A DNA stretch of 64,000 nt from Phytohabitans houttuyneae (GTDB taxonomy: Bacteria > Actinomycetota > Actinomycetes > Mycobacteriales > Micromonosporaceae), in NCBI RefSeq assembly GCF_011764425.1, contig NZ_BLPF01000001.1, positions 4,083,001 through 4,147,000 of the forward strand. The letters are read 5' to 3'. Shown here one piece after another: positions 1 to 12,670 of this stretch. Made by a program: the position numbers and the translations under genes. A model generated the notes under the pieces. That model searched no databases. It was not told the DNA's origin and worked only from the letters and a program-made list of their open reading frames with translations. The stretch's first letter is position 1; every line of letters begins with the position of its first letter.

Positions 1-122
1 TCATGCTGATCGAGGCCCGCGACCTCAACGAGGCGATCCGGATCGCCGGCCGCATCCCGAGCGCCCGCATCGGGAGCATCGAGGTGCGGCCCGTGATCGA
101 CCTGATGCGCGAACACTCGTGA
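1..122 (+). CDS. YCII/DGPF-family protein, C-terminal fragment
   Basis: Only the last 39 or so codons are in the window; the gene starts upstream. The visible tail ends in a pattern typical of the C-terminus of YCII-related (DGPF) proteins, with AGRIPSARIGSIEVRPV. The complete paralogue at 49315-49686 has a matching end (IGAMVPESALGLVEVRPV). Its stop codon overlaps the GTG start of the sigma factor gene behind it by four bases, so the two are probably translationally coupled. YCII proteins next to ECF42 sigma factors are a known pairing; their molecular role is not settled. Family call is inferred from the fragment plus context. Confidence 0.75.
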   Translation, partial: MLIEARDLNEAIRIAGRIPSARIGSIEVRPVIDLMREHS

Positions 123-1339
123 TCGATGTCGACGCCGTCTACCGCACCCACTCCCGCCGGGTACTGGCCACGCTGATCCGCCTGCTGGGCGACTTCGATC
201 TGGCGGAGGAGGCGCTGCAGGACGCGTTCGTGGCGGCGGTCGAGCAGTGGCCGCGCGAGGGCGCACCGGCCAACCCCTACACATGGCTGGTCTCCGCCGG
301 CCGCTTCAAGGCGATCGACCGCCTGCGCCGCCGGGCCCGCTTCGACAAGCTGCTCTTCGAGCTGGCGACGCGGCTCGAAGAGGCACCGGACGAGGAGCAC
401 ACCGATCTCCCGGATGACCGTCTCCGCCTCATCTTCACCTGCTGCCACCCGGCTCTGCCCCCGGACGCCCAGGTGGCGATGACGCTGCGCGAGGTGTGCG
501 GCCTGACGACCGAGGAGATCGCCCGAGCGTTTCTCACCGGGCCACCGACGGTCGCCCAACGCATCGTCCGGGCCAAGAACAAGATCAAGATCAACAAGAT
601 TGGGTACGCGGTACCCGTCCCCGCAGAGCTACCCGGCCGCCTCGACCCCGTCCTCAGCACGGTGTACCTGATCTTCACCGAGGCCTACGCGCCCTCCGCG
701 GGCCCGGTCGCGGTCCGCACCGAGCTCGCGGACGAGGCCATCCGCCTCGGGTGGCTGCTGGCCGAGCTGCTGCCCGATCCCGAGGTGCTGGGACTGCTGG
801 CCCTGATGCTGCTGCAGGACTCGCGCCGGGACGCCCGTACCGCCCCGGACGGCGAGATCGTGCTCCTGCCCGACCAGGACCGCTCGCTGTGGCGCCGGGA
901 CCAGATCGACGCGGCCGCCGGGCTGCTGCGGCGCGCGCGGTCGGCGGGCGAGGTGGGCACGTACACGCTGCAGGCCGAGATCGCCCTGGTCCACGCCGAG
1001 GCTCCGGCGGCACAGGACACCGACTGGCGGCGCGTCGTCGACCTGTACGACCTCCTGGTCCGCGCGGACCCATCCCCGGTCGCCCACCTCAACCGCGCCG
1101 TGGCGCTTGCCATGCGCGACGGCCCTGCCGCCGGCCTCGCGGCCCTGGACGCGGTGCTCGCCGACGGTCGACTCGACGACTACCACCTGGCCCACTCGGC
1201 CCGCGCCGACCTGCTTCGCCGCCTGGGCCGCACCGGCGAGGCGCGGGCGGCGTACGAACGGGCGCTGGAGCTGGCGCGCCAGGAGCCTCAGCGCCGCTTT
1301 CTGGCCCGCCGCCTGGCGGAGCTCCCAACGGGCGCCTGA
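119..1339 (+). CDS. ECF42-type RNA polymerase sigma factor with C-terminal TPR-like extension
   Basis: A 406-residue sigma factor of the ECF42 (COG4941) type. Region 2 covers about residues 8-70, with the LAEEALQDAF motif and a WL..AGRFKAIDRLRR segment. Region 4 is at about 115-165, with LTTEEIARAF as helix-turn-helix and VAQRIVRAKNKIK. A long alpha-helical C-terminal part (about 180-406) resembles the TPR-like extension characteristic of ECF42, ending in the usual AYERALELA..EPQRRFLARRLAEL pattern. The GTG start overlaps the preceding YCII gene by GTGA. ECF42 factors have no classical anti-sigma partner; the YCII protein is the conserved neighbour. A second such pair lies at 49315-50885. Confidence 0.93.
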   Translation: MIDVDAVYRTHSRRVLATLIRLLGDFDLAEEALQDAFVAAVEQWPREGAPANPYTWLVSAGRFKAIDRLRRRARFDKLLFELATRLEEAPDEEHTDLPDDRLRLIFTCCHPALPPDAQVAMTLREVCGLTTEEIARAFLTGPPTVAQRIVRAKNKIKINKIGYAVPVPAELPGRLDPVLSTVYLIFTEAYAPSAGPVAVRTELADEAIRLGWLLAELLPDPEVLGLLALMLLQDSRRDARTAPDGEIVLLPDQDRSLWRRDQIDAAAGLLRRARSAGEVGTYTLQAEIALVHAEAPAAQDTDWRRVVDLYDLLVRADPSPVAHLNRAVALAMRDGPAAGLAALDAVLADGRLDDYHLAHSARADLLRRLGRTGEARAAYERALELARQEPQRRFLARRLAELPTGA

Positions 1340-1353
1340 GCCGTCGGGGATGA

Positions 1354-1770
1354 CTAGGCGGCGCGGCGACGCAGGGTGGCGACGGCCGACCCGGCCAGGG
1401 TGAGGAGGCACTCGGGCAGCTGACCGTCGGCCAGCGCGGCGCCGAAGAGGGCCTCACCGGTCGAGGCGTCAGCGTTTGCGTACGCACTCACGAACCGGGC
1501 GACCCAGCGGGCATCGTAGCGAGCTTCGTCGATGCCAGGGAAGTCGAGCGTCCAGCGGCCCTGCTGCACGTTGTCGCCGACCATGGTGGCCGCTATGCAC
1601 CAGGCCACGTCATACGCACCGGCCACGCCGGCCCGGTCGACCACCGCGTCGAACGCTCCGACGACGGCGTCACTGTCGCCGGCCAGCGCGCTGCGGAGCA
1701 CCTGGGCGGCATCATCGAACGCCTCGGGCGGAACATCCGTCACGAGCCGAAGGGTATGCCGCCGGGTCAA
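1354..1770 (-). CDS. Hypothetical protein
   Basis: I do not recognise this 138-residue protein. It is Ala/Asp/Val-rich, predicted helical, without signal peptide or membrane segment, and has a conserved-looking AYDVAWCIAATMVGDNVQQGRW stretch in the middle. It is convergent with the sigma factor gene, with a gap of only 14 bases. The longest frame uses a TTG start without a clear ribosome site; an in-frame GTG at 1743 would give 129 residues (starting VTDVPPEAFDD) and is equally plausible. Codon use is the same GC-rich type as its neighbours, so it is probably a real gene. Confidence 0.65.
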   Translation of the reverse strand: MTRRHTLRLVTDVPPEAFDDAAQVLRSALAGDSDAVVGAFDAVVDRAGVAGAYDVAWCIAATMVGDNVQQGRWTLDFPGIDEARYDARWVARFVSAYANADASTGEALFGAALADGQLPECLLTLAGSAVATLRRRAA

Positions 1771-2348: not shown

Positions 2349-3689
2349 ATGTACCGCTCGCGCAGCGCTGCCATCGCCGCCTGCACCGCATTCCTGCTCG
2401 CCATCGCGGGCTGTGGAAGGACCGACGACTCTCCGGAGGAGACAACCGCCGGGCCGGTTCGTCTCTACGGGGCCGACGGCAACATGATCAACTCGTTCGG
2501 AGATTCGTTCAAGGACCAGGCCGGCGTGCTTGCCGGCATGAAGGGCACCACGCCCCTCACCCCGCTCTCCGACGACTTCAAGAAGCAGCTGCGCGCGATC
2601 GACCCCGACCTGGGCGACTACGTGTACGCGGGCGAGAGCTACGACGCCGTGGTGATCAGCTCCCTCGCCGCCGAGCTCGCCGGCAGCACCGCGCCTCGCG
2701 AGATCGCAAAGTTCATCAACGGCGTGACTACAGAGGGTGAGCGCTGCGACACGGCTAAGTCCTGCCTCGCCCTCGCGCGCGCCGGCGAGGACATCGAGTA
2801 CCGCGGGGTCTCGCTCAAGCGCGGCGGGTTCACCGACGCCGGCGAGCCGTCCACCGCGAGCTACGCCACCCTGCACTTCGACGCCAGCGACCGGCTCGAC
2901 GACGGCAAGACGGAGTTCGTGGGCGCGGGTGACGAGTCGACCACGACCACCAAGCGCTCGCCGGCCGGGCGGCCGGGTAAGGACGACGCCGAGCAGACCG
3001 GCGCTCCGCTGAAGATCGGCGGGCTGCTGCCGCAGACCGGTGACCTCGCCTTGGCCAACCCGCCGCTGGCGGCCGGCTCGGCCCTCGCGATCCGCGACAT
3101 CAACGCGGCCGGCGGCGTGCTCGGCCAGCCGGTCGAGTGGATCGACGGCGACGACGGCACCAACCCGACGAAGGCCAAGCAGACGGTGGCCTCGCATGTG
3201 GACGCCGGCGTACACGTGATCATCGGCGCCGGCGCCTCGGGCATCTCGCGAGCCGTGCTGCCGGACATCGTCAAGGCCGGCGTGATCCTCTTCTCGCCCT
3301 GCAACACCGACGCCGGGCTGAGCGAGATCGACGACAAGGGCCTCTACTTCCGCACCGCCCCCTCCGATCTGCTGCAGGGCAAGGCGCTCGCCGACGTGAT
3401 TATGCGCGACGGGCCGCAGCACATCGCGATCGTGGCCCGCAAGGACTCGTACGGCGAGGGCCTGCAGGGCAACGTCCGCGCCGAGCTGGAGAAGGCCGGC
3501 GTGAACGCGAGCAACCTGAAGCTGCTCACCTATGACCCGCCGGAGGACCCGAACGCCGCGCTCGACTTCACCGCCGGGGCCAAGGAGATCAAAGACTTCA
3601 AGGCCGATGCGGTACTGGTGATCGGCTTCGGTGAGTCGGCGAACGTCATCAAGGCCCTCGTCGCGGCGGGCGTGGAGCTCCGCCACTAG
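2349..3689 (+). CDS. ABC-type substrate-binding lipoprotein (Leu/Ile/Val-binding type), apparently circularly permuted
   Basis: A 446-residue lipoprotein. The signal peptide ends in a lipobox, AIAGC, with Cys22. The rest is recognisable as a periplasmic-binding-protein type 1 receptor of the branched-chain amino-acid class, but the order of its parts is unusual. Residues about 36-197 (beginning PVRLYGADGN, then DYVYAGESYDAVV and ERCDTAKSCLALARAGEDIEYRG) match what is normally the C-terminal part. Residues 221-446 (beginning LKIGGLLPQTGDLA, ending VIGFGESANVIKALVAAGVELRH) match what is normally the N-terminal part. The two are joined by a Thr/Pro/Gly/Asp-rich linker at about 198-220. The protein ends exactly where the family normally continues into the LYGxDGN strand. 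No permease or ATPase gene is adjacent. A start at 1974 would be longer but lacks the signal peptide logic. Confidence 0.88.
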   Translation: MYRSRSAAIAACTAFLLAIAGCGRTDDSPEETTAGPVRLYGADGNMINSFGDSFKDQAGVLAGMKGTTPLTPLSDDFKKQLRAIDPDLGDYVYAGESYDAVVISSLAAELAGSTAPREIAKFINGVTTEGERCDTAKSCLALARAGEDIEYRGVSLKRGGFTDAGEPSTASYATLHFDASDRLDDGKTEFVGAGDESTTTTKRSPAGRPGKDDAEQTGAPLKIGGLLPQTGDLALANPPLAAGSALAIRDINAAGGVLGQPVEWIDGDDGTNPTKAKQTVASHVDAGVHVIIGAGASGISRAVLPDIVKAGVILFSPCNTDAGLSEIDDKGLYFRTAPSDLLQGKALADVIMRDGPQHIAIVARKDSYGEGLQGNVRAELEKAGVNASNLKLLTYDPPEDPNAALDFTAGAKEIKDFKADAVLVIGFGESANVIKALVAAGVELRH

Positions 3690-3782: not shown

Positions 3783-4427
3783 ATGAGCGAGTTCGACGAC
3801 CCGACCCTGACCGAAGACCCCGGCACCGGACACGAGGGCTTCGGCCACGCTGGCGACGGCGGGCACGAGCCCGGTTACGACCAGCCCGGCTACGAGCAGC
3901 CGACCCACGACACCCCGCCGTACGGCCACGACGAGCCGCACTACGAGGAGCCGCACCACGGCGAGCCGGACTCGATCGTCCAGAAGAACCCCGACGGTTC
4001 GACCGACGTGGTGGTGGACCTCAACGGTGACGGGTACGCGGACGTCGTGCAGCACGACTCCGACAGCGACGGGTACGCCGACACGACCTATGTGGACAGC
4101 AACCACGACGGTCGCCTCGACACGATCCTGAAGGACTACGACGACGACGGCGACCTGGACGCCGCGTTCGCCGACACCAACGCGGACGGCCGCGTCGACT
4201 ACGCCGCCGCCGACCTGAACGACGACAACCGGGTCGACCACGTCACGCTCGACACCGACTACGACGGCAAGGCCGACACCTGGATCGCCGACGTCGACTA
4301 CGACGGCAAGCCGGACGTGGCCTTCGTCGACACCAACCACGACGGCACGCCCGACGTCGCCGTGACCGACACCAACCACGACGGCACGCCCGAGCAGCAG
4401 CCCGTCAACCCGTACGCCGCGAGCTGA
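3783..4427 (+). CDS. Acidic D-x-D-G repeat protein, putative calcium binder
   Basis: A 214-residue, very acidic protein. Residues 1-65 are low-complexity, rich in His, Glu, Gly, Pro and Tyr (repeats such as GYDQPGYEQP and HDEPHYEEP). From about 68 to 205 it has about a dozen tandem 10-15-residue units of the form D-x-N/D-x-D-G-x-x-D (for example DLNGDGYADV, DSNHDGRLDT, DTNHDGTPDV). These resemble dockerin, EF-hand-loop or thrombospondin type 3 calcium ligands. There is no signal peptide or membrane segment, which is odd for this repeat class. A GGAG ribosome site lies six bases before the ATG. A smaller paralogue follows at 4515. Calcium binding is inferred from the motif. Confidence 0.8.
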   Translation: MSEFDDPTLTEDPGTGHEGFGHAGDGGHEPGYDQPGYEQPTHDTPPYGHDEPHYEEPHHGEPDSIVQKNPDGSTDVVVDLNGDGYADVVQHDSDSDGYADTTYVDSNHDGRLDTILKDYDDDGDLDAAFADTNADGRVDYAAADLNDDNRVDHVTLDTDYDGKADTWIADVDYDGKPDVAFVDTNHDGTPDVAVTDTNHDGTPEQQPVNPYAAS

Positions 4428-4514: not shown

Positions 4515-4763
4515 ATGAGCGAGCCGCAGGAAACGGTGGACACCCGGGGCGACCAGCGCGTCGACCTGTTGAAGATGGACACCAACAACGACGGCAAGAC
4601 CGACTTGTGGGCCGCCGACACCGATGGCGACGGCAAGACCGACCTGTACCAGTTCGACACGGACGGCGACGGCAAGGTCAACGTCACCATGAGCGACCTG
4701 GACGAGGACGGTACGCCGGACCAGGTGGTGGAAGGGGACGGCGGCCTGCCGCCCACCCCGTAG
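4515..4763 (+). CDS. Small acidic D-x-D-G repeat protein
   Basis: An 82-residue paralogue of the repeat part of the preceding gene. It contains about four units (DTNNDGKTDLW, DTDGDGKTDLY, DTDGDGKVNV, DLDEDGTPDQV), each with the Asp/Asn spacing of a calcium-coordinating loop. It has a short MSEPQETVDTRGDQRVDLL N-terminus and no signal peptide. An AGCGAGGA ribosome site precedes the ATG. It is followed by an inverted repeat at 4782-4810 that could end transcription. The pair looks like a tandem duplication with loss of the His/Pro-rich head. The function is unknown; calcium binding is an inference. Confidence 0.75.
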   Translation: MSEPQETVDTRGDQRVDLLKMDTNNDGKTDLWAADTDGDGKTDLYQFDTDGDGKVNVTMSDLDEDGTPDQVVEGDGGLPPTP

Positions 4764-4781
4764 CCCGCAACCCGAACAGAG

Positions 4782-4810
4782 TCAGGGGCGTCCCAGAGGG
4801 GCGCCCCTGA
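4782..4810. terminator. Bidirectional hairpin terminator
   Basis: A perfect 9-base inverted repeat (tcaggggcg at 4782-4790, cgcccctga at 4802-4810) separated by 11 bases. It sits between the convergent genes ending at 4763 (plus) and 4823 (minus), so it can serve both. There is no T-tract, as is usual in actinobacteria. Confidence 0.6.
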
Positions 4811-4822
4811 TGTATGCGCGCC

Positions 4823-6154
4823 TCAGAACGAGAGCGCCGCGCAGGCCGCGGCCAGCACGAGCAGCGTGACGGTAAGGATCAGCGTGCGGCGGCGCATCGA
4901 GCCACGCCGCTGGTCGATCGCTGTCGCCTCCGGGTGGCCGAGAGCGCGCAGCCGCGCCCGCTGCAGCAGCACCTCGTCCCGCCAGTGCTCCACCGCCGCG
5001 GCGTCGTGCGTGACCTGCGCGCGGCTCAGCTCCAGCGCGAGCCTCGCCTGTGCGCGCTGGAGGCGGCGCACCGCCCGCCTGCCGAGCACGCCCACCCGGC
5101 CGTAGGCGTACCGCCGGGCGTTGGCGCGCAGGTGTCCCATGCTCAGCACCCGCAGCTCGCCCGGGGTGGCTATGTCCGGATCGCCCAGCGACGCCAGCTG
5201 CTGGGTGTAGTAGTCGGCTTCGCGGTGCCGCGCCGCGCGTACCAGCAGCAGGATCGCCAGCAGCGGTGGGATGCCCTTGGCCAGCAGCACCGCGATGAGG
5301 GCGTACCCGTTGGCGCCGGCCTCGACGGTCAGCAGCGGCGAGTTCCACACGAAGTGGCACCCCCACGCGCCGAGGAAACAGGCCACCGCGACACCGATCC
5401 GGAAGCGCATCGTGCGATCGGTGCGCACCAGTACCGACGCAACCCCGGCGCCGGCGAGCGCGCTGAAGAGCGTGTGGCTCCAGAGGCCGGCGAGGAAGCC
5501 GCGCACGAAGAACGTGGCCACCACCGGCCCCACGTCGTCGCCCCGGCCGGCGGCGGCGACCGCGCTCACCGCGTACACGACGTCCTCGACCACCTGGAAC
5601 CCGAGCCCGACCAGCGACCCGTAGATGACGCCGTCGAGCACGCTGTTTATCTGTGCGCGGGCGATCAGCACGATCGCGACGATGCCGAGCGTCTTCACGA
5701 TCTCTTCCACGGTGGGTCCGGCGATGGCCGAGCCCCACGCGGCGGCGAAGGCGGGCGAGTACACCTTGGCGAGCATGTTCTGGATCGCGATGCTGCCCGG
5801 GGCCGAAACCGTCGTCGCGACAAGGCCGCCCCAGCCGAACGCGGTGGCCAGCAGCAGCGGCGGCTCGCGCTCAAGGTAGTCGAGCGCGGAGACGAAGAGC
5901 CAGAAGGGCACCGCGTACACGGCGAAGAGCGCGAGCGCGGCGGTCGTCGCCACCGGGTACTCGGCAATCGCGTGGCGGATCAGCAGCACCGTGCGCGCGG
6001 CGCCCACCGCCATCAGCAGGGCCACCATCCAGAACGCCGGCAGCAGCAGCGACTTTCGGGCCTGCGCCCAGGCCGGCGTCGGGCGCACGGGTGCGGTGCG
6101 GGCGCTGCGCGGCGGCACACCGTGCCCGCCCGGGCAGCCGGCGGTGGCCGTCAC
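4823..6154 (-). CDS. PrsW-family intramembrane metalloprotease
   Basis: A 443-residue integral membrane protein of the PrsW family, relatives of which cleave anti-sigma factors or other membrane substrates. About eight hydrophobic segments cover residues 40-330. The family motifs are visible: the EE-x-x-K motif at Glu150-Glu151 (VEEIVKTLG), then GFQVVEDVVYA, and His-containing GLWSHTLFSAL and WGCHFVWN segments that would complete the metal site. The last 100 residues form an Arg/Ala-rich, probably coiled-coil cytoplasmic part, then a final membrane helix. The GTG start overlaps the stop of 6151-6708 by GTGA, so the two are coupled. No obvious anti-sigma substrate is adjacent; the coupled partner is a candidate. 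Confidence 0.9.
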   Translation of the reverse strand: MTATAGCPGGHGVPPRSARTAPVRPTPAWAQARKSLLLPAFWMVALLMAVGAARTVLLIRHAIAEYPVATTAALALFAVYAVPFWLFVSALDYLEREPPLLLATAFGWGGLVATTVSAPGSIAIQNMLAKVYSPAFAAAWGSAIAGPTVEEIVKTLGIVAIVLIARAQINSVLDGVIYGSLVGLGFQVVEDVVYAVSAVAAAGRGDDVGPVVATFFVRGFLAGLWSHTLFSALAGAGVASVLVRTDRTMRFRIGVAVACFLGAWGCHFVWNSPLLTVEAGANGYALIAVLLAKGIPPLLAILLLVRAARHREADYYTQQLASLGDPDIATPGELRVLSMGHLRANARRYAYGRVGVLGRRAVRRLQRAQARLALELSRAQVTHDAAAVEHWRDEVLLQRARLRALGHPEATAIDQRRGSMRRRTLILTVTLLVLAAACAALSF

Positions 6155-6869: not shown

Positions 6870-9800
6870 ATGAGGCTGGTGTTTCGTCGCGCCCGTGGAG
6901 TAAAGAGTCTTCTCCTCGCGGCGGCCGGTGCGACCTTGATCGCAACCGTTTTGCTCACCGGCCTTGCCGACTACAGCCGCGAGGTGGTGGACGCCGGCGC
7001 CCGCAGCGCGATCAGCTCGGCCACGCCCGAGGAGCGGTCGATCCTGGTGCAGGGCCCGGCCGGAGGTCGCGAGTTCGCCGAGCGGGACGCCGCGATCCAC
7101 GACCGCTACGCGGGCGGGTTCGCCGGGTTGGACGCGCGGGTCTCCACGGCCGCGTATGCCGTCGGGAGGCAGCTCACCGGCGACGTCGGCGACGCCCGCC
7201 CGGACAAGGACGGTGTCGTCTTCGCGTCGGTCACGTTCCTCGACGGGCTGCGGGAGCAGGCCGACCTGGTGGACGGCGCGTGGCCTGAGCCGGGCGCGAC
7301 ACCGGTGCGCACCGCCCTCGCCGAGGCGGCCGCCCGGACCCTGCGGCTCAAGGTGGGCGACCGGGTCGCGATCCACGACCGGCTCAGCGGCAAGTCCACG
7401 GAGATCGAGGTCTCCGGTATCTGGCGGCCTCGCGACACGAACGCACCGTTCTGGCGCCTCGCCCCGGGCGTCGCGGACGGTGCCGCGCCACAGTCCTCTA
7501 CTTATGGGCCCTTCGTCGTGGACCGTGCCGACTTCCTCAGCGGCTTCGCGGCGAGCGCCTCGGCCGCCTGGCTGGTCGAGCCGGACCTTGCCGGCGCCCC
7601 GCTCTCCACACTCGACGCCGTCGGACGCGCGACCACCAGCACCGTCGACACGCTGGCCGAGGAGATCGGGCTGGGCTCGTCCGGCCTCGTCACCTCGCGC
7701 CTGGACCAGCTGACCGGACGCCTGGAGCGGGCGGACCTGGTCGGCCGTTCGGCGCTCATCACGCCGATGCTGCTGATGGTGGTGCTCGGCGGGTACGCGC
7801 TGGTGCTCGTCGCCGTCCTCATGACCGAGCAGCGCCGCGGCGAGACGGCGCTGCTGCGGGCGCGCGGTGCCGCCCGGGTCCAGCTCGCCAGCCTGGCCGC
7901 ACGCGAGGCCGCGCTTGTCGTCCTGCCGGCCGCGGTGCTCGCGCCGCTGCTGGCCAGCCAGATCCTCCGGTACGTGGACCGCGTGCCCATGCTCGCCGCC
8001 GGCGCGCTCAGCCTCACTCCCCGGTTCGACGCGCTGACCTGGGTGGTGGCCGGACTGGCAGCGGCCGGGTGCGCGGTGGCGATGCTCGGCCCCGCGCTGC
8101 GCCGCGGCGACACGTACGTCGCGGAGATGGCCAGCCGCTCCCGGCCGACCCGCCGCGCGGCCGCACAGCGGGCGAGCCTGGACATCGCGCTGGTGGGCCT
8201 CGCCGTGCTCGGCTGGTTCCAGCTGCGGCAGTACTCCTCTCCGCTCGCCGGCGGCGACCTCGGCATCGACCCGCTGCTGGCGGCGAGCCCGACGCTGGGC
8301 GTGCTGGCCGGCGCGGCGATCGCGCTCCGGGCGCTGCCGCCGCTGACCCGGCTGGCCGAGCGGGCGGTCGACCGCAAGCCGTGGACCGCGACGATCTTCG
8401 GTATGTGGCAGGCCGGGCGGCGGCCACAGGCCGGTCCGGTGCTACTGCTCGCGCTCGCCGTCGCGGTCAGCACGCTCGCGTGGTGCCTGGCCGGCACGTC
8501 CGAGCGTTCCCTCGTCGACCAGGCCGACCACCAGGTCGGTGCCGACCTGCGCCTGCTGGAGGCGACGCGGTTCGCGCCCGACGGCCGGGCGGCCGAGGTC
8601 GCCGCGCTGCCCGGCGCGGAGACGGTGCTGCCGGCCTGGCGGGACAGCCTCCGGCTGGGCGCCGAGGGTGTGAGCGCCTCGGTCATCTCCCTGGACGCTG
8701 CCCAGGCGGCCGGCGTGGTGCGGATCCGCGACGACGTGGCCGGCGGCTCCCCGCAGAGTCTCTTCGCGAAGCTGAGCGAGGGCCGGGTGGAAGCGCCGGT
8801 CGTCGACCTGCCGGCCGGGACGCGGCGGATCTCCGGCGAGGTCGAGACCGAGGTGGCCGGTTGGGCCAACGAGTTCTACTCGCCGCCCGAGCCCGCGGTG
8901 CACACCGACGCGGTGTTCGCGGTGGCGGGCGGGTACCGCAGGGTGCCACTCGGCTTCAGCCGCAACGCCGAGCGCCTGCGCTTCGCGGTCGACCTGCCCG
9001 AGGACCTGCAGTCGGTGCGGCTGGCCGGCTTCCTGGTCAGCAGCAGCGGGCCGGCCGGCTTCCGGGTGGACTGGGAGGCGCGCTCGCTGGTGGCGGACGG
9101 TACCCCGGTCGACCTGGCCTCCTCCGGGCCGTGGCAGGCACGCACCCGGGCGGGCGCCGAGGCGGCCGGTGGCGCGGTGCCGACCGTCGACTACACCCAG
9201 CCGAACGCCGGCCTGTGGGGCTACGAACAGCCCGTCTCTCTGGTCGTCACCCGCGCCCGCAAGGCCGCGCCGGTACCGGTGGTCGCGACGCCGGCGGCAC
9301 TCTCCGCACTGCGGCTGGGCAGCGGCGACGAGACCCGCATGTCGCTCGGGCAGGGCGAGGTCGACGTCCGGTTCGCCGGTACGGTCGCCGCCGTGCCCGG
9401 CACCGAGGACGGCGCCGCGCTCCTGGCCGACCTGCCGTCGCTGGCCGCGGAGGCCTTCTACGGGTACGGCGAGGTGCGCCAGCCGCAGGAGTGGTGGCTT
9501 TCCACCGGCGCGGATCCACACGCGACCGCCGCGGCCGCCGCCGCGCTGCCCGGCATCCAGGTGCTCGACCGGCGCGCCGCCGCGGACGCCGCCGGCCGCG
9601 ACCCGTACGGCGTGGGCGCCCGCGCGGCCCTTTTCGCCGCCGCCCTCGGCGCGGTGCTCATCGCGGCGATGGGCATCGGTGTCGACATCCGGGCCACCGC
9701 CCGCCGCCGGGTCGGCGAGCTCGCCGTTCTCCACACGCTCGGCGCGAGCCCGCGCCTGCTCGGCCGGTCGCTGGTGGCCGAGCAGACGTTCCTGGCCGGC

Positions 9801-10043
9801 GTGGGCGTGATAGTCGGACTCGTGGTCGGTGTGGGTGTAGCCGCGACAATGGCACCGCTCGTCATCCTCACGCCCGCGGCGGGCCGGCCCGTGCCGGAGC
9901 CGCTGCTGACCATCGAGTGGTCTCCGGTCGGCGCGACCGCAGGCGGCCTCCTCCTGCTCACGCTCGTGCTCAGCGCGTCGGTGGCGCTCGCCGCCCGACA
10001 ACGGCTGATCGCGGCCCAGCTGCGGATCGGGGCTGACGCATGA
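6870..10043 (+). CDS. ABC exporter permease, large FtsX/MacB-like
   Basis: A 1057-residue permease, first gene of a four-gene operon. After an N-terminal transmembrane helix (about 13-34) comes a large extracytoplasmic domain. Then come a first FtsX core around residues 295-420 (LLMVVLGGYALVLVAVLMTEQRRGETALLRARGA), more helices, a second long exterior region and a C-terminal FtsX core near 920-1050. The RRRVGELAVLHTLGAS loop there is typical of FtsX permeases. This duplicated architecture fits MacB/LolCE-like mechanotransmission exporters, which act on envelope lipids, peptides or drugs rather than by alternating access. The stop overlaps the next gene by ATGA. Substrate unknown. Confidence 0.9.
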   Translation: MRLVFRRARGVKSLLLAAAGATLIATVLLTGLADYSREVVDAGARSAISSATPEERSILVQGPAGGREFAERDAAIHDRYAGGFAGLDARVSTAAYAVGRQLTGDVGDARPDKDGVVFASVTFLDGLREQADLVDGAWPEPGATPVRTALAEAAARTLRLKVGDRVAIHDRLSGKSTEIEVSGIWRPRDTNAPFWRLAPGVADGAAPQSSTYGPFVVDRADFLSGFAASASAAWLVEPDLAGAPLSTLDAVGRATTSTVDTLAEEIGLGSSGLVTSRLDQLTGRLERADLVGRSALITPMLLMVVLGGYALVLVAVLMTEQRRGETALLRARGAARVQLASLAAREAALVVLPAAVLAPLLASQILRYVDRVPMLAAGALSLTPRFDALTWVVAGLAAAGCAVAMLGPALRRGDTYVAEMASRSRPTRRAAAQRASLDIALVGLAVLGWFQLRQYSSPLAGGDLGIDPLLAASPTLGVLAGAAIALRALPPLTRLAERAVDRKPWTATIFGMWQAGRRPQAGPVLLLALAVAVSTLAWCLAGTSERSLVDQADHQVGADLRLLEATRFAPDGRAAEVAALPGAETVLPAWRDSLRLGAEGVSASVISLDAAQAAGVVRIRDDVAGGSPQSLFAKLSEGRVEAPVVDLPAGTRRISGEVETEVAGWANEFYSPPEPAVHTDAVFAVAGGYRRVPLGFSRNAERLRFAVDLPEDLQSVRLAGFLVSSSGPAGFRVDWEARSLVADGTPVDLASSGPWQARTRAGAEAAGGAVPTVDYTQPNAGLWGYEQPVSLVVTRARKAAPVPVVATPAALSALRLGSGDETRMSLGQGEVDVRFAGTVAAVPGTEDGAALLADLPSLAAEAFYGYGEVRQPQEWWLSTGADPHATAAAAAALPGIQVLDRRAAADAAGRDPYGVGARAALFAAALGAVLIAAMGIGVDIRATARRRVGELAVLHTLGASPRLLGRSLVAEQTFLAGVGVIVGLVVGVGVAATMAPLVILTPAAGRPVPEPLLTIEWSPVGATAGGLLLLTLVLSASVALAARQRLIAAQLRIGADA

Positions 10044-12670
10044 GCGGGGTGCTGTGGCGGGTCCGGGTCTTCGCCGGGCAGTTCGGCCTGCTCGCCGCGC
10101 TCGCCCTCGTCGCGGCTCTGCTGATCACGGCGGCACCCCGGCTGGCCAACGACCTCACCGACCGCGCGCTGCACGCGGACGTGGCCCGCCTGCCGTACGC
10201 GGCCCGGGACATCACGCTCTCGCAGCGACCGGAGAACCTCAACGCCGACCCCACGCTGAGCAGCGCGGCGGATGCCGTGCCGATGTACCGCGACCGGATG
10301 CCCGCTCCGCTGCGCGAGCTGGTGAGCGAGGGGTGGTTCACGGCCGGGCTGGAAGGGGCCACACTCCCGCCGGCCGGCCCGCGCACCCTGCTGGGCCTGC
10401 GGACGCAGGGTGGCATGCCCGATCGGGTACGCGTCACGACCGGCCGCTGGCCGGCCAACAACGCCAACCTCGAAGTCCTCGAAGTGGCGCTGTCGACGGC
10501 CGTGTCCAAGCAGCTCGCCGCGCCCGTGGGCACCGTCCTGCGGGTCGACCCGGCTCCCCAGACCGGGCCGCGTGGCGTATCCATCCAGGTCGTGGTCGTG
10601 GGCATATTCGAACCGATCGACGGCAACGACCTGGCCTGGGACACGATTCGCCTGGCGCTGGAGCCGTTCCCCGGCCTGCCGCCGGACACCCCGGCCGCCG
10701 CGATGGCGATGACCGACGGCGCGGGCCTCGGGCTGGCGACGCGGCGGCTGCCCACGCCGGCACTGTCCTGGCGCTACCGGCTTGACGAAAAGCGCCTCGA
10801 CGGCGAGAGCCTCCAAGCGGTCACCACCGCGCTGGCCGAGATCAAGCGCACCCCGCCGGTACCGGGCATGTCCACGTCGACAAACCTCGACGCCACGCTG
10901 CTCCGCTTCGACGGGCAGCTGCGGGCGGTCTCCGCGCTGCTGGCGGTGGTACAGGCGGGTCTGATCGCCACGCTCCTCGGTCTCATCGCGCTCGCCGCCG
11001 CGCTCGCGGTGGAGCGGCGGCGGGAGGAGTTCGCGCTGCTGCGCGCGCGGGGCGGCACGATCGCCGCGATCGGCGGCCGGGCGCTGGCCGAGTCGCTGGT
11101 GGTGCTCCCGCTGGCCACGGTGGTGGGCTGGCTGCTGGGCACCTATGTACCCGGCCGGCCGGCGGCCACCGGCTGGCTCGTCGTGGGCGCGGGTGTGGTG
11201 GCCACGCTGGCGATCCCGGTGCTCGCGGCGGTGAGCCAGCGGCGGCTGTCGTTTACGGCGCGCCGGCAGGACCTCGTGCGGCACCGCCCCTCGGTACGCC
11301 GCCTCACCGCCGAGCTGTTCTTCATCCTGGTCGCCGTTCTCGGCGCGTACCTGCTGCGGCGGCGCGGCCTGAGCCCGGACGGCAGCGTCGACCCGTACCT
11401 CGCCTCGGTGCCCGTCCTGCTCGCGGTCGGCGCGGCGATCGTCGCCCTGCGGGTCTTCCCGTGGCCGCTGGGCCAGCTCGGCAAGCTCGCCGCGCGGGCC
11501 CGCGGCGCGGTCGCGTTCCTCGGCCTTGCCCGCGCCGGACGGGGCGCGCCGGTCACGATCGGACCGCTGGCCGTGCTGGTGGTCGCCATCGCGACCGGCA
11601 TCTTCAGCGGCGTGGTCATGTCCTCGATCGGCGACGCCCGCGACCGCGCGGCCGACCTGGAGATCCCCGCCGACGCGCGAGTGTCCGGGTACGCCTTCGC
11701 GCCCGACGTCACCGACCAGCTCGCCGCCGTCCCGGGCGTGACCGCCGTCGCGCCCGTGACCGTCGACCCCGCGACCCGCTACACCGCCGCGAATGGAGCC
11801 AAAAACGGCGTGCAGGTGGCCGTCGTGGACACCGCCGCCCTCGCCCGCGTGGCCACGGCGAGCGGGGTGAGCGTCACGCTGCCGGCGGCGCTCGTCGACG
11901 CGCGGCCCGGCGACGGTCCCCTGCCCGCGCTGGTCTCCCCCGACGTGGCGGCCGAGCTGGGCGGCGGTGGCGAGGCGACCATCCGCAGCCGGTCGTACGA
12001 CTTCACCGTCGCCGCCGTCGCGGACGCGTTCCCGGGCGTGCCCTCGGCGTCGGGCCGGTTCATCGTGCTGCCGCGGCAGGCGCTGCCGGACCCGGCCGTG
12101 ATCGCCCCGGACCACTTCCTGGTGGCGGGCGACGCGAGCCCCGAGGCGCTCCGCACGGCGAGCACCCCGCAAGCGGGCTCGTCCGTCACGGTCACAAGCT
12201 GGTCGGACCACCGCCGCGACCTGGAAGAGACGGGTGCCAACGAGGTGCTCAGCTTCACGTTCACCACCGGCACGGTCGGCGCCACCACGCTGGCGCTGCT
12301 GGCGGTCGGCTTCACCGTGCTGGCCGGCGCCCGGGTACGCGGGCAGGTGCTCTCCCGCCTCCGCACGCTCGGGCTCTCCGGTCGCCAGGGTCGCGGCCTG
12401 CTCGTGTACGAGCTGGTACCCCTCGTCACCATCGCCGTGCTCGCCGGCGGCCTCGTGGGTGTGTTCCTGCCCCGGGTGATCGGGCCGGCGCTGGGCCTGT
12501 CGAGCTTCACCAGCGGCGCGGCCGTGCGCACCGCCCTCGATCCGCTGCTTATCGGCGCGGTGCTGGTGCTGGTGGTGGCCGCTCTGGCCGCTGCCCTTGT
12601 CGTCGAGAATGTAGTCAACCGGCGGATGCGCCTCGGCGAGGTGCTGCGCGTGGGCGAGGAGGGCCAATGA
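10040..12670 (+). CDS. ABC exporter permease, second FtsX-like subunit
   Basis: An 876-residue paralogue of the preceding permease. It has an N-terminal helix at about 8-30, an exterior domain, and an FtsX core near 290-420 with the hallmark AVERRREEFALLRARGGTIAAIGGRAL cytoplasmic loop. Further helices and a second exterior domain follow, and a C-terminal core at about 750-860 (LSRLRTLGLSGRQGRGLLVYELVPL). It probably pairs with the 1057-residue subunit as a heterodimer. ATGA overlaps on both sides (10040-10043 and 12667-12670) suggest strict co-translation with the partner permease and the ATPase. Confidence 0.9.
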   Translation: MSGVLWRVRVFAGQFGLLAALALVAALLITAAPRLANDLTDRALHADVARLPYAARDITLSQRPENLNADPTLSSAADAVPMYRDRMPAPLRELVSEGWFTAGLEGATLPPAGPRTLLGLRTQGGMPDRVRVTTGRWPANNANLEVLEVALSTAVSKQLAAPVGTVLRVDPAPQTGPRGVSIQVVVVGIFEPIDGNDLAWDTIRLALEPFPGLPPDTPAAAMAMTDGAGLGLATRRLPTPALSWRYRLDEKRLDGESLQAVTTALAEIKRTPPVPGMSTSTNLDATLLRFDGQLRAVSALLAVVQAGLIATLLGLIALAAALAVERRREEFALLRARGGTIAAIGGRALAESLVVLPLATVVGWLLGTYVPGRPAATGWLVVGAGVVATLAIPVLAAVSQRRLSFTARRQDLVRHRPSVRRLTAELFFILVAVLGAYLLRRRGLSPDGSVDPYLASVPVLLAVGAAIVALRVFPWPLGQLGKLAARARGAVAFLGLARAGRGAPVTIGPLAVLVVAIATGIFSGVVMSSIGDARDRAADLEIPADARVSGYAFAPDVTDQLAAVPGVTAVAPVTVDPATRYTAANGAKNGVQVAVVDTAALARVATASGVSVTLPAALVDARPGDGPLPALVSPDVAAELGGGGEATIRSRSYDFTVAAVADAFPGVPSASGRFIVLPRQALPDPAVIAPDHFLVAGDASPEALRTASTPQAGSSVTVTSWSDHRRDLEETGANEVLSFTFTTGTVGATTLALLAVGFTVLAGARVRGQVLSRLRTLGLSGRQGRGLLVYELVPLVTIAVLAGGLVGVFLPRVIGPALGLSSFTSGAAVRTALDPLLIGAVLVLVVAALAAALVVENVVNRRMRLGEVLRVGEEGQ

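Follow-up and report, generated by a model that had tools for sequence, protein, structure and literature searches.

The window, by which we mean the whole 64,000-nucleotide stretch of DNA that was analyzed (G000:C1:4083001-4147000), comes from the 11.3-Mb genome of Phytohabitans houttuyneae. Near its start is a gene for a 446-residue receptor protein, with a conserved gene divergent from it. The features are as follows:

1354..1770, minus strand: gene for a 138-residue protein, divergent from the receptor gene and matched in 91 of 94 Micromonosporaceae loci
2349..3689, plus strand: gene for a circularly permuted LivK-type (Peripla_BP_6) substrate-binding lipoprotein, 446 residues plus stop
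2349..2414, plus strand: signal peptide with lipobox LAIAG-C22 (Cys22 at 2412-2414)
2415..2456, plus strand: short tether, residues 23-36 (pLDDT below 50 for residues 1-31; profile spacing)
2457..2933, plus strand: old C-terminal part, residues 37-195 (hhalign and BLASTP against normal-order relatives)
2745..2765, plus strand: conserved Cys133 and Cys139 pair, common to the permuted and normal forms
2934..3002, plus strand: new linker, residues 196-218, rich in Thr, Ser, Pro, and Lys, joining the old C terminus to the old N terminus
3003..3686, plus strand: old N-terminal part, residues 219-446 (Pfam and structural superposition)
3237..3635, plus strand: candidate ligand residues S297, T320, Y368, and E429 (alignments to 1usg, and to 4n0q for E429)

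Cys22 is invariant across the 22 sequences of our alignment A1, and the lipobox suggests that it is presumably lipidated. The tether is typically short in the receptors that share this arrangement (type A, defined below), with a median of 13 residues between the cysteine and the start of the N-part profile match. The old C-terminal part begins with the strand LYGADGN, and residues 37-42 form a strand in the AlphaFold model. We take this strand to correspond to the crossing between the lobes in LivK-type receptors. Further along, C133 is kept in 130 of 132 alignment rows and C139 in all 132 (repeated genes are among the rows), and a disulfide between them is possible. The linker region (residues 191-220) was modeled with mean pLDDT values of 54, 64, and 57, and across 171 type A ORFs, the gap between the two profile matches has a median of 17 residues. 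An earlier note, made from the letters of the sequence, had drawn the two parts at residues 36-197 and 221-446, within a few residues of the limits used here.

The two parts stand in the reverse of the order found in normal relatives. Pfam Peripla_BP_6 (PF13458) matched residues 220-443 with 116.5 bits (cut-off, 31.7), and this match covered only profile positions 1-216 of 343. When the parts were rejoined in the old order, the match ran over positions 1-315 of 343, and the score rose from 116.5 to 129.3 bits. Separate alignment of each part to the profile, which the earlier note had proposed, placed the old N-terminal part in this family but left the other part unmatched: residues 34-205 alone had no Pfam match up to an E value of 10, and residues 34-189 alone found no receptor among PDB sequences. 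Because of this, we assigned the first part through its normal-order relatives. A profile built from residues 34-205 and their relatives (A4) aligned with columns 266-406 of an alignment of normal-order proteins (A2) (hhalign; probability, 99.9; E value, 2e-31). The normal-order alignment is itself collinear with LivJ/LivK-type structures (profile positions 48-353 with 3ipc chain residues 4-306).

BLASTP with the whole protein gave the same picture. Each of five normal-order relatives from the same bacterial order aligned as two segments in reversed order, first from residues 194-221 to 437-442 and then from residues 30-39 to 183-197 (44-50% identity; E values, 6e-38 to 2e-59). Twenty loci were compared, and 13 of them (L065-L076 and L083) had the normal order, with the counterpart of the window protein's second part ahead of that of residues 30-183 (39-47% identity); the other seven were permuted like the window gene. 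Taken together, both parts have 39-50% identical counterparts, arranged the other way around, in normal-order relatives, which are present both inside and outside the Micromonosporaceae. The hhalign and BLASTP results rule out that residues 37-195 are an unrelated domain. Five Pfam matches were returned up to an E value of 1, with no sugar-receptor family among them. The conventional N-to-C order of LivK halves is absent, and each half occurs a single time, with both in one frame. The core of the earlier note therefore held up: it had described a lipobox signal peptide, one frame with one signal peptide, a circularly permuted order (on which Pfam, hhalign, and the reversed BLASTP segments agree), and a stop exactly where relatives enter the LYGxDGN strand, and the old N-terminal part does end directly ahead of that strand.

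AlphaFold predicted the whole protein as one folded chain (pLDDT, 80.6; pTM, 0.80); the earlier note had suggested that a folded receptor could still form if the new linker spanned the old termini. In this model, residues 219-445 superpose on residues 1-221 of the 3ipc chain (2.2 Å over 219 residues; VIA-align). However, structure searches, which use sequential alignment, matched residues 216-446 only, and the old C-terminal part was placed by sequence. Modeled alone, that part had a pLDDT of 46.5, and within the whole chain its residues 51-150 had values of approximately 80-95. A part that depends on the other would be expected to behave in this way.

The candidate ligand pocket lies in the old N-terminal part. 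S297, T320, and Y368 align with S79, T102, and Y150 of the E. coli leucine-binding protein (1usg), and E429 is presumably the counterpart of its E226. We take these four residues of the leucine-binding protein to contact ligand. In the 132-row alignment, in which repeated genes are among the rows, S297 is conserved in 129 rows, T320 in 132, Y368 in 130, and E429 in 127, and the pocket residues are kept across all forms, permuted and normal. Compared with LivJ/LivK-type receptors (PF13458), the window protein is alike in that both parts are homologous, the pocket positions are conserved, and the fold is predicted to be the same. It differs in its swapped parts, in the position of its lipid anchor, and, in the Micromonosporaceae, in having no adjacent importer.

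Permuted receptors fall into two types, which we defined by the position of the cut before any tree was made. Type A has the cut of the window protein. Type B has a second cut, approximately 20-25 residues downstream of the first, and the two cuts flank the same strand. In the phylum search, the first part of type B proteins lacked the first 20-25 profile positions, and these were found at the C terminus, ending like ...VYGCDGNMGNGLGKAFDAGE. A further search, in the class of one of these proteins, added more. The number of residues after the C-part profile has a median of 0 (at most 8) in type A and is 22-25 in type B. We classified 310 ORFs, repeats included: 183 are permuted, 91 are normal, and 36 have only the part that resembles residues 219-446. 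Type B accounts for nine distinct genes, seen as 12 ORFs, in four families (f43, f84, f126, and f30), none of them within the window's class (genomes G752, G942, G1018, G734, G694, G632, G1031, G542, and G791).

Outside the Micromonosporaceae, the receptor is usually found with importer genes. At one type B locus, it adjoins two BPD_transp_2 permeases and two ABC ATPases, and the nearest NCBIfam models of these four genes are LivH/UrtB, LivM, LivG, and UrtE/LivF, all below the NCBI cut-offs. A tblastn search matched all four livHMGF-like genes in 13 of the 16 loci examined, comprising five of five normal-order loci (any family) and eight of 11 permuted loci outside the Micromonosporaceae. The remaining permuted loci have three importer genes (L316), two at a contig end (L314), or none (L318). 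The last of these (G1031:C6:35000-47000) carries a divergent type B receptor that is 41% identical to that of L209, and none of the four importer genes was matched in its 12 kb; it is a second, separate orphan.

The permuted copy of the Micromonosporaceae is also an orphan, and it has lost the importer link, which is retained by a normal-order copy from this family (L311). Across 94 loci from the Micromonosporaceae (4-17 kb each), no permease gene was matched. These loci reach a few kilobases to either side of the receptor and include the genes of some genomes twice; weak ABC-ATPase matches were seen in two of them (L095 and L159). The genome of P. houttuyneae has 43 LivHM-type permease-family matches, and the nearest on the same contig is more than 730 kb from the receptor. 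The absence of adjacent transporter genes that the earlier note had reported holds.

Other neighbors are conserved to different degrees. The 138-residue protein encoded at 1354-1770 had no Pfam or NCBIfam match. Downstream on the plus strand, 3786-4427 and 4515-4763 encode two proteins of DxDxDG-like acidic repeats, which are possibly calcium binding; each gene was matched close to the receptor in 89 of 94 loci, and the product of 3786-4427 has a weak FG-GAP match below the cut-off. A sigma-70-type (ECF-like) factor that contains DUF6596 and ends in a TPR-like region (119-1339, plus strand) is near the receptor in only five of 94 loci. At least 3 kb downstream of the receptor are two large, overlapping genes that encode FtsX-type permeases (6870-10043 and 10040-12670, plus strand), called from Pfam for the former and from the translation only for the latter. 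FtsX-type permeases are not importers. In one Micromonospora (L104), the neighbors of the receptor, all on the minus strand, encode a DUF2786 protein (4681-5388), an enoyl-CoA hydratase (7388-8131), and a 3-hydroxyacyl-CoA dehydrogenase (8184-9041).

The orphan copy might have left transport altogether and become a surface sensor or taken on another binding role. The distance to the nearest LivHM-type permease on its contig and the lack of permease matches in the 94 loci both fit this, as does the fact that the receptor is nonetheless strongly conserved, together with its divergent neighbor. However, the 43 LivHM-type permease matches in the genome mean that a distant importer could be served in trans, and no signaling gene was recognized among the few neighbors that were searched. 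We regard a departure from transport as a tentative reading.

The number of origins was addressed with trees in which the receptors had been put into one order. The tree set was made without loci L001-L064 and L099-L204, which are near-copies or unrelated receptors. Dropping 15 redundant rows reduced the 132 rows to 117, and dropping 43 more gave 74 rows for approximately unbiased (AU) tests; L280, which has a long branch, is in the 117-row tree only. The 117-row tree needs three changes of order: type A once (one origin, with SH-aLRT support of 87) and type B twice, as two separate groups, B1 with six rows and B2 with two. AU tests rejected type B as a single clade (p-AU, 0.008) and type A plus all of type B as a single clade (p-AU, 0.00016). 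Type A plus B1 as a single clade was not rejected (p-AU, 0.31); this test was after the fact, because the first tree had supplied the division into B1 and B2. A careful tree of 47 rows joins B2 to a normal-order protein (support, 100/95), and in it type A stands together with normal-order proteins of f8 and f15, from the window's order (100/98). Type A forms one clade there (76/81) and in 74% of 200 bootstrap trees, and type B does so in 0%. A single origin of type A is thus only moderately supported. From these results on 117, 74, and 47 rows, at least two independent permutations are therefore well supported, and three are probably the best reading.

One ancient permutation would explain both cuts if an ancestor with both ends redundant had lost different ends in different lineages. 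The cuts do flank the same strand only 20-25 residues apart, a clade of type A plus B1 is compatible with the AU test, and type A itself has only moderate support as a single origin. Nevertheless, we consider this unlikely given the two rejected clades, the grouping of B2 with a normal-order protein, and the absence of a type B clade from the bootstrap trees. Gene arrangement also differs: of 15 linked loci, 14 have the receptor and importer genes in convergent orientation, and the one B2 locus examined (L310) has them divergent. Moreover, none of the 310 classified ORFs (repeats included) had redundant ends. On balance, we lean toward a receptor family that has been permuted three times, at two cuts flanking one inter-lobe strand, always as a lipoprotein and, outside the Micromonosporaceae, mostly beside the original importer.

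The swapped order is not a lone oddity but is common to well over a hundred related species. The permuted gene is full length in all six genomes of the genus, that of P. houttuyneae included (79-100% identity). In the Micromonosporaceae, at least 120 of 200 sampled genomes have a contiguous full-length permuted match, and 13 of these have two; in family f16 of the same bacterial order, 62 of 76 genomes have one. Both counts were read from match listings by hand, and the family matches include one with an internal stop (G121) and one that starts at residue 35 (G062). All 80 of the best 80 of 223 relatives in named genomes have the permuted order in one ORF, and these loci are from Micromonospora, Asanoa, Plantactinospora, Verrucosispora, and Phytohabitans. 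Six Micromonosporaceae genomes (G011, G020, G067, G096, G114, and G121) have a permuted gene and also one in normal order. It is scarcely credible that the order is an artefact of assembly or that frameshifted tandem copies give a false appearance of permutation: misjoined tandem copies can yield a permuted gene, and the genome is estimated to be 95.4% complete with 4.9% contamination, but the same contiguous order in so many genomes in effect refutes an assembly error, and the permuted loci also share conserved neighbors.

We are therefore highly confident that this gene encodes a LivK-type extracytoplasmic receptor whose circular permutation is genuine, of natural origin, and fixed; the permuted form is conserved and probably functional. 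Circular permutations usually arise when a gene is duplicated in tandem and the outer halves are then lost. Along this route, which the earlier note had put forward, an ancestral receptor gene would have been duplicated in tandem, and loss of the outer parts would have left a signal peptide, the second half, a linker, and the first half. The arrangement fits, but no intermediate with either part twice was found among the 310 classified ORFs. The chain is still predicted to fold into a single two-lobed Venus flytrap receptor with its pocket residues kept. If so, it would still bind a small ligand, which is probably amino acid-like. The lipid anchor would have shifted from the first strand of the N lobe to the strand that crosses between the lobes, and a flexible linker of approximately 20 residues would tie the old ends together. 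Where livHMGF-like genes adjoin, they presumably encode the importer that the receptor serves. For the orphan of Phytohabitans and the other Micromonosporaceae, the most likely roles are delivery to a distant importer in trans or sensing.

The earlier note had also supposed that such a permutation would be novel. Searches of open-access papers brought up no permuted LivK-type receptor but did bring up one natural permuted type I receptor. TpMglB-2 (Tp0684) of Treponema pallidum, reported in 2016, is described as a circularly permuted type I sugar receptor lipoprotein, with a crystal structure, glucose binding, and a conformational change reported by its authors (PMC4990184). They named its topology Type Ic/Cluster Bc and called it hitherto unknown for the class, and they noted relatives in Gram-positive bacteria and suggested a link with membrane tethering (PMC4990184). 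As described there, the first three strands of its N lobe have moved to the C terminus, and the moved part aligned poorly with MglB (13%) (PMC4990184). By sequence, the window protein is likewise a circularly permuted type I receptor lipoprotein. However, it belongs to the LivK family and not to the MglB sugar family, it is cut at the end of the old N-terminal two-thirds (approximately 220 profile positions follow the linker), and both of its parts align with normal relatives at the identities given above. Therefore, novelty is limited by the precedent as that report presents it, and the present receptor differs in its cut, its family, and how clear its homology is. Engineered permuted halves of ribose-binding protein have also been made and crystallized (PMC9815098). 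These too have type I receptor lobes with rearranged ends, but they are described as designed single lobes and not as a natural whole receptor (PMC9815098).

Domain annotation misses half of such proteins, as Pfam covers only residues 220-443 of this one. To our knowledge, few single-chain receptors with a natural circular permutation are known for which normal-order relatives, partner genes, and multiple origins can all be seen. This one family offers all three, with identities high enough for trees and direct experiments. This makes it testable whether fold topology or tether position drove the change, and it provides natural designs for permuted LivK-type biosensors. The special value of the family is recurrence, with the same hinge region opened more than once. 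Evolution seems able to re-cut a LivK-type receptor near its hinge and to retain it. If the family was indeed permuted three times, then the inter-lobe crossing would be a permissive or even favored place for a new end, and a lipid tether at the crossing perhaps helps a surface-tethered receptor to close or dock.
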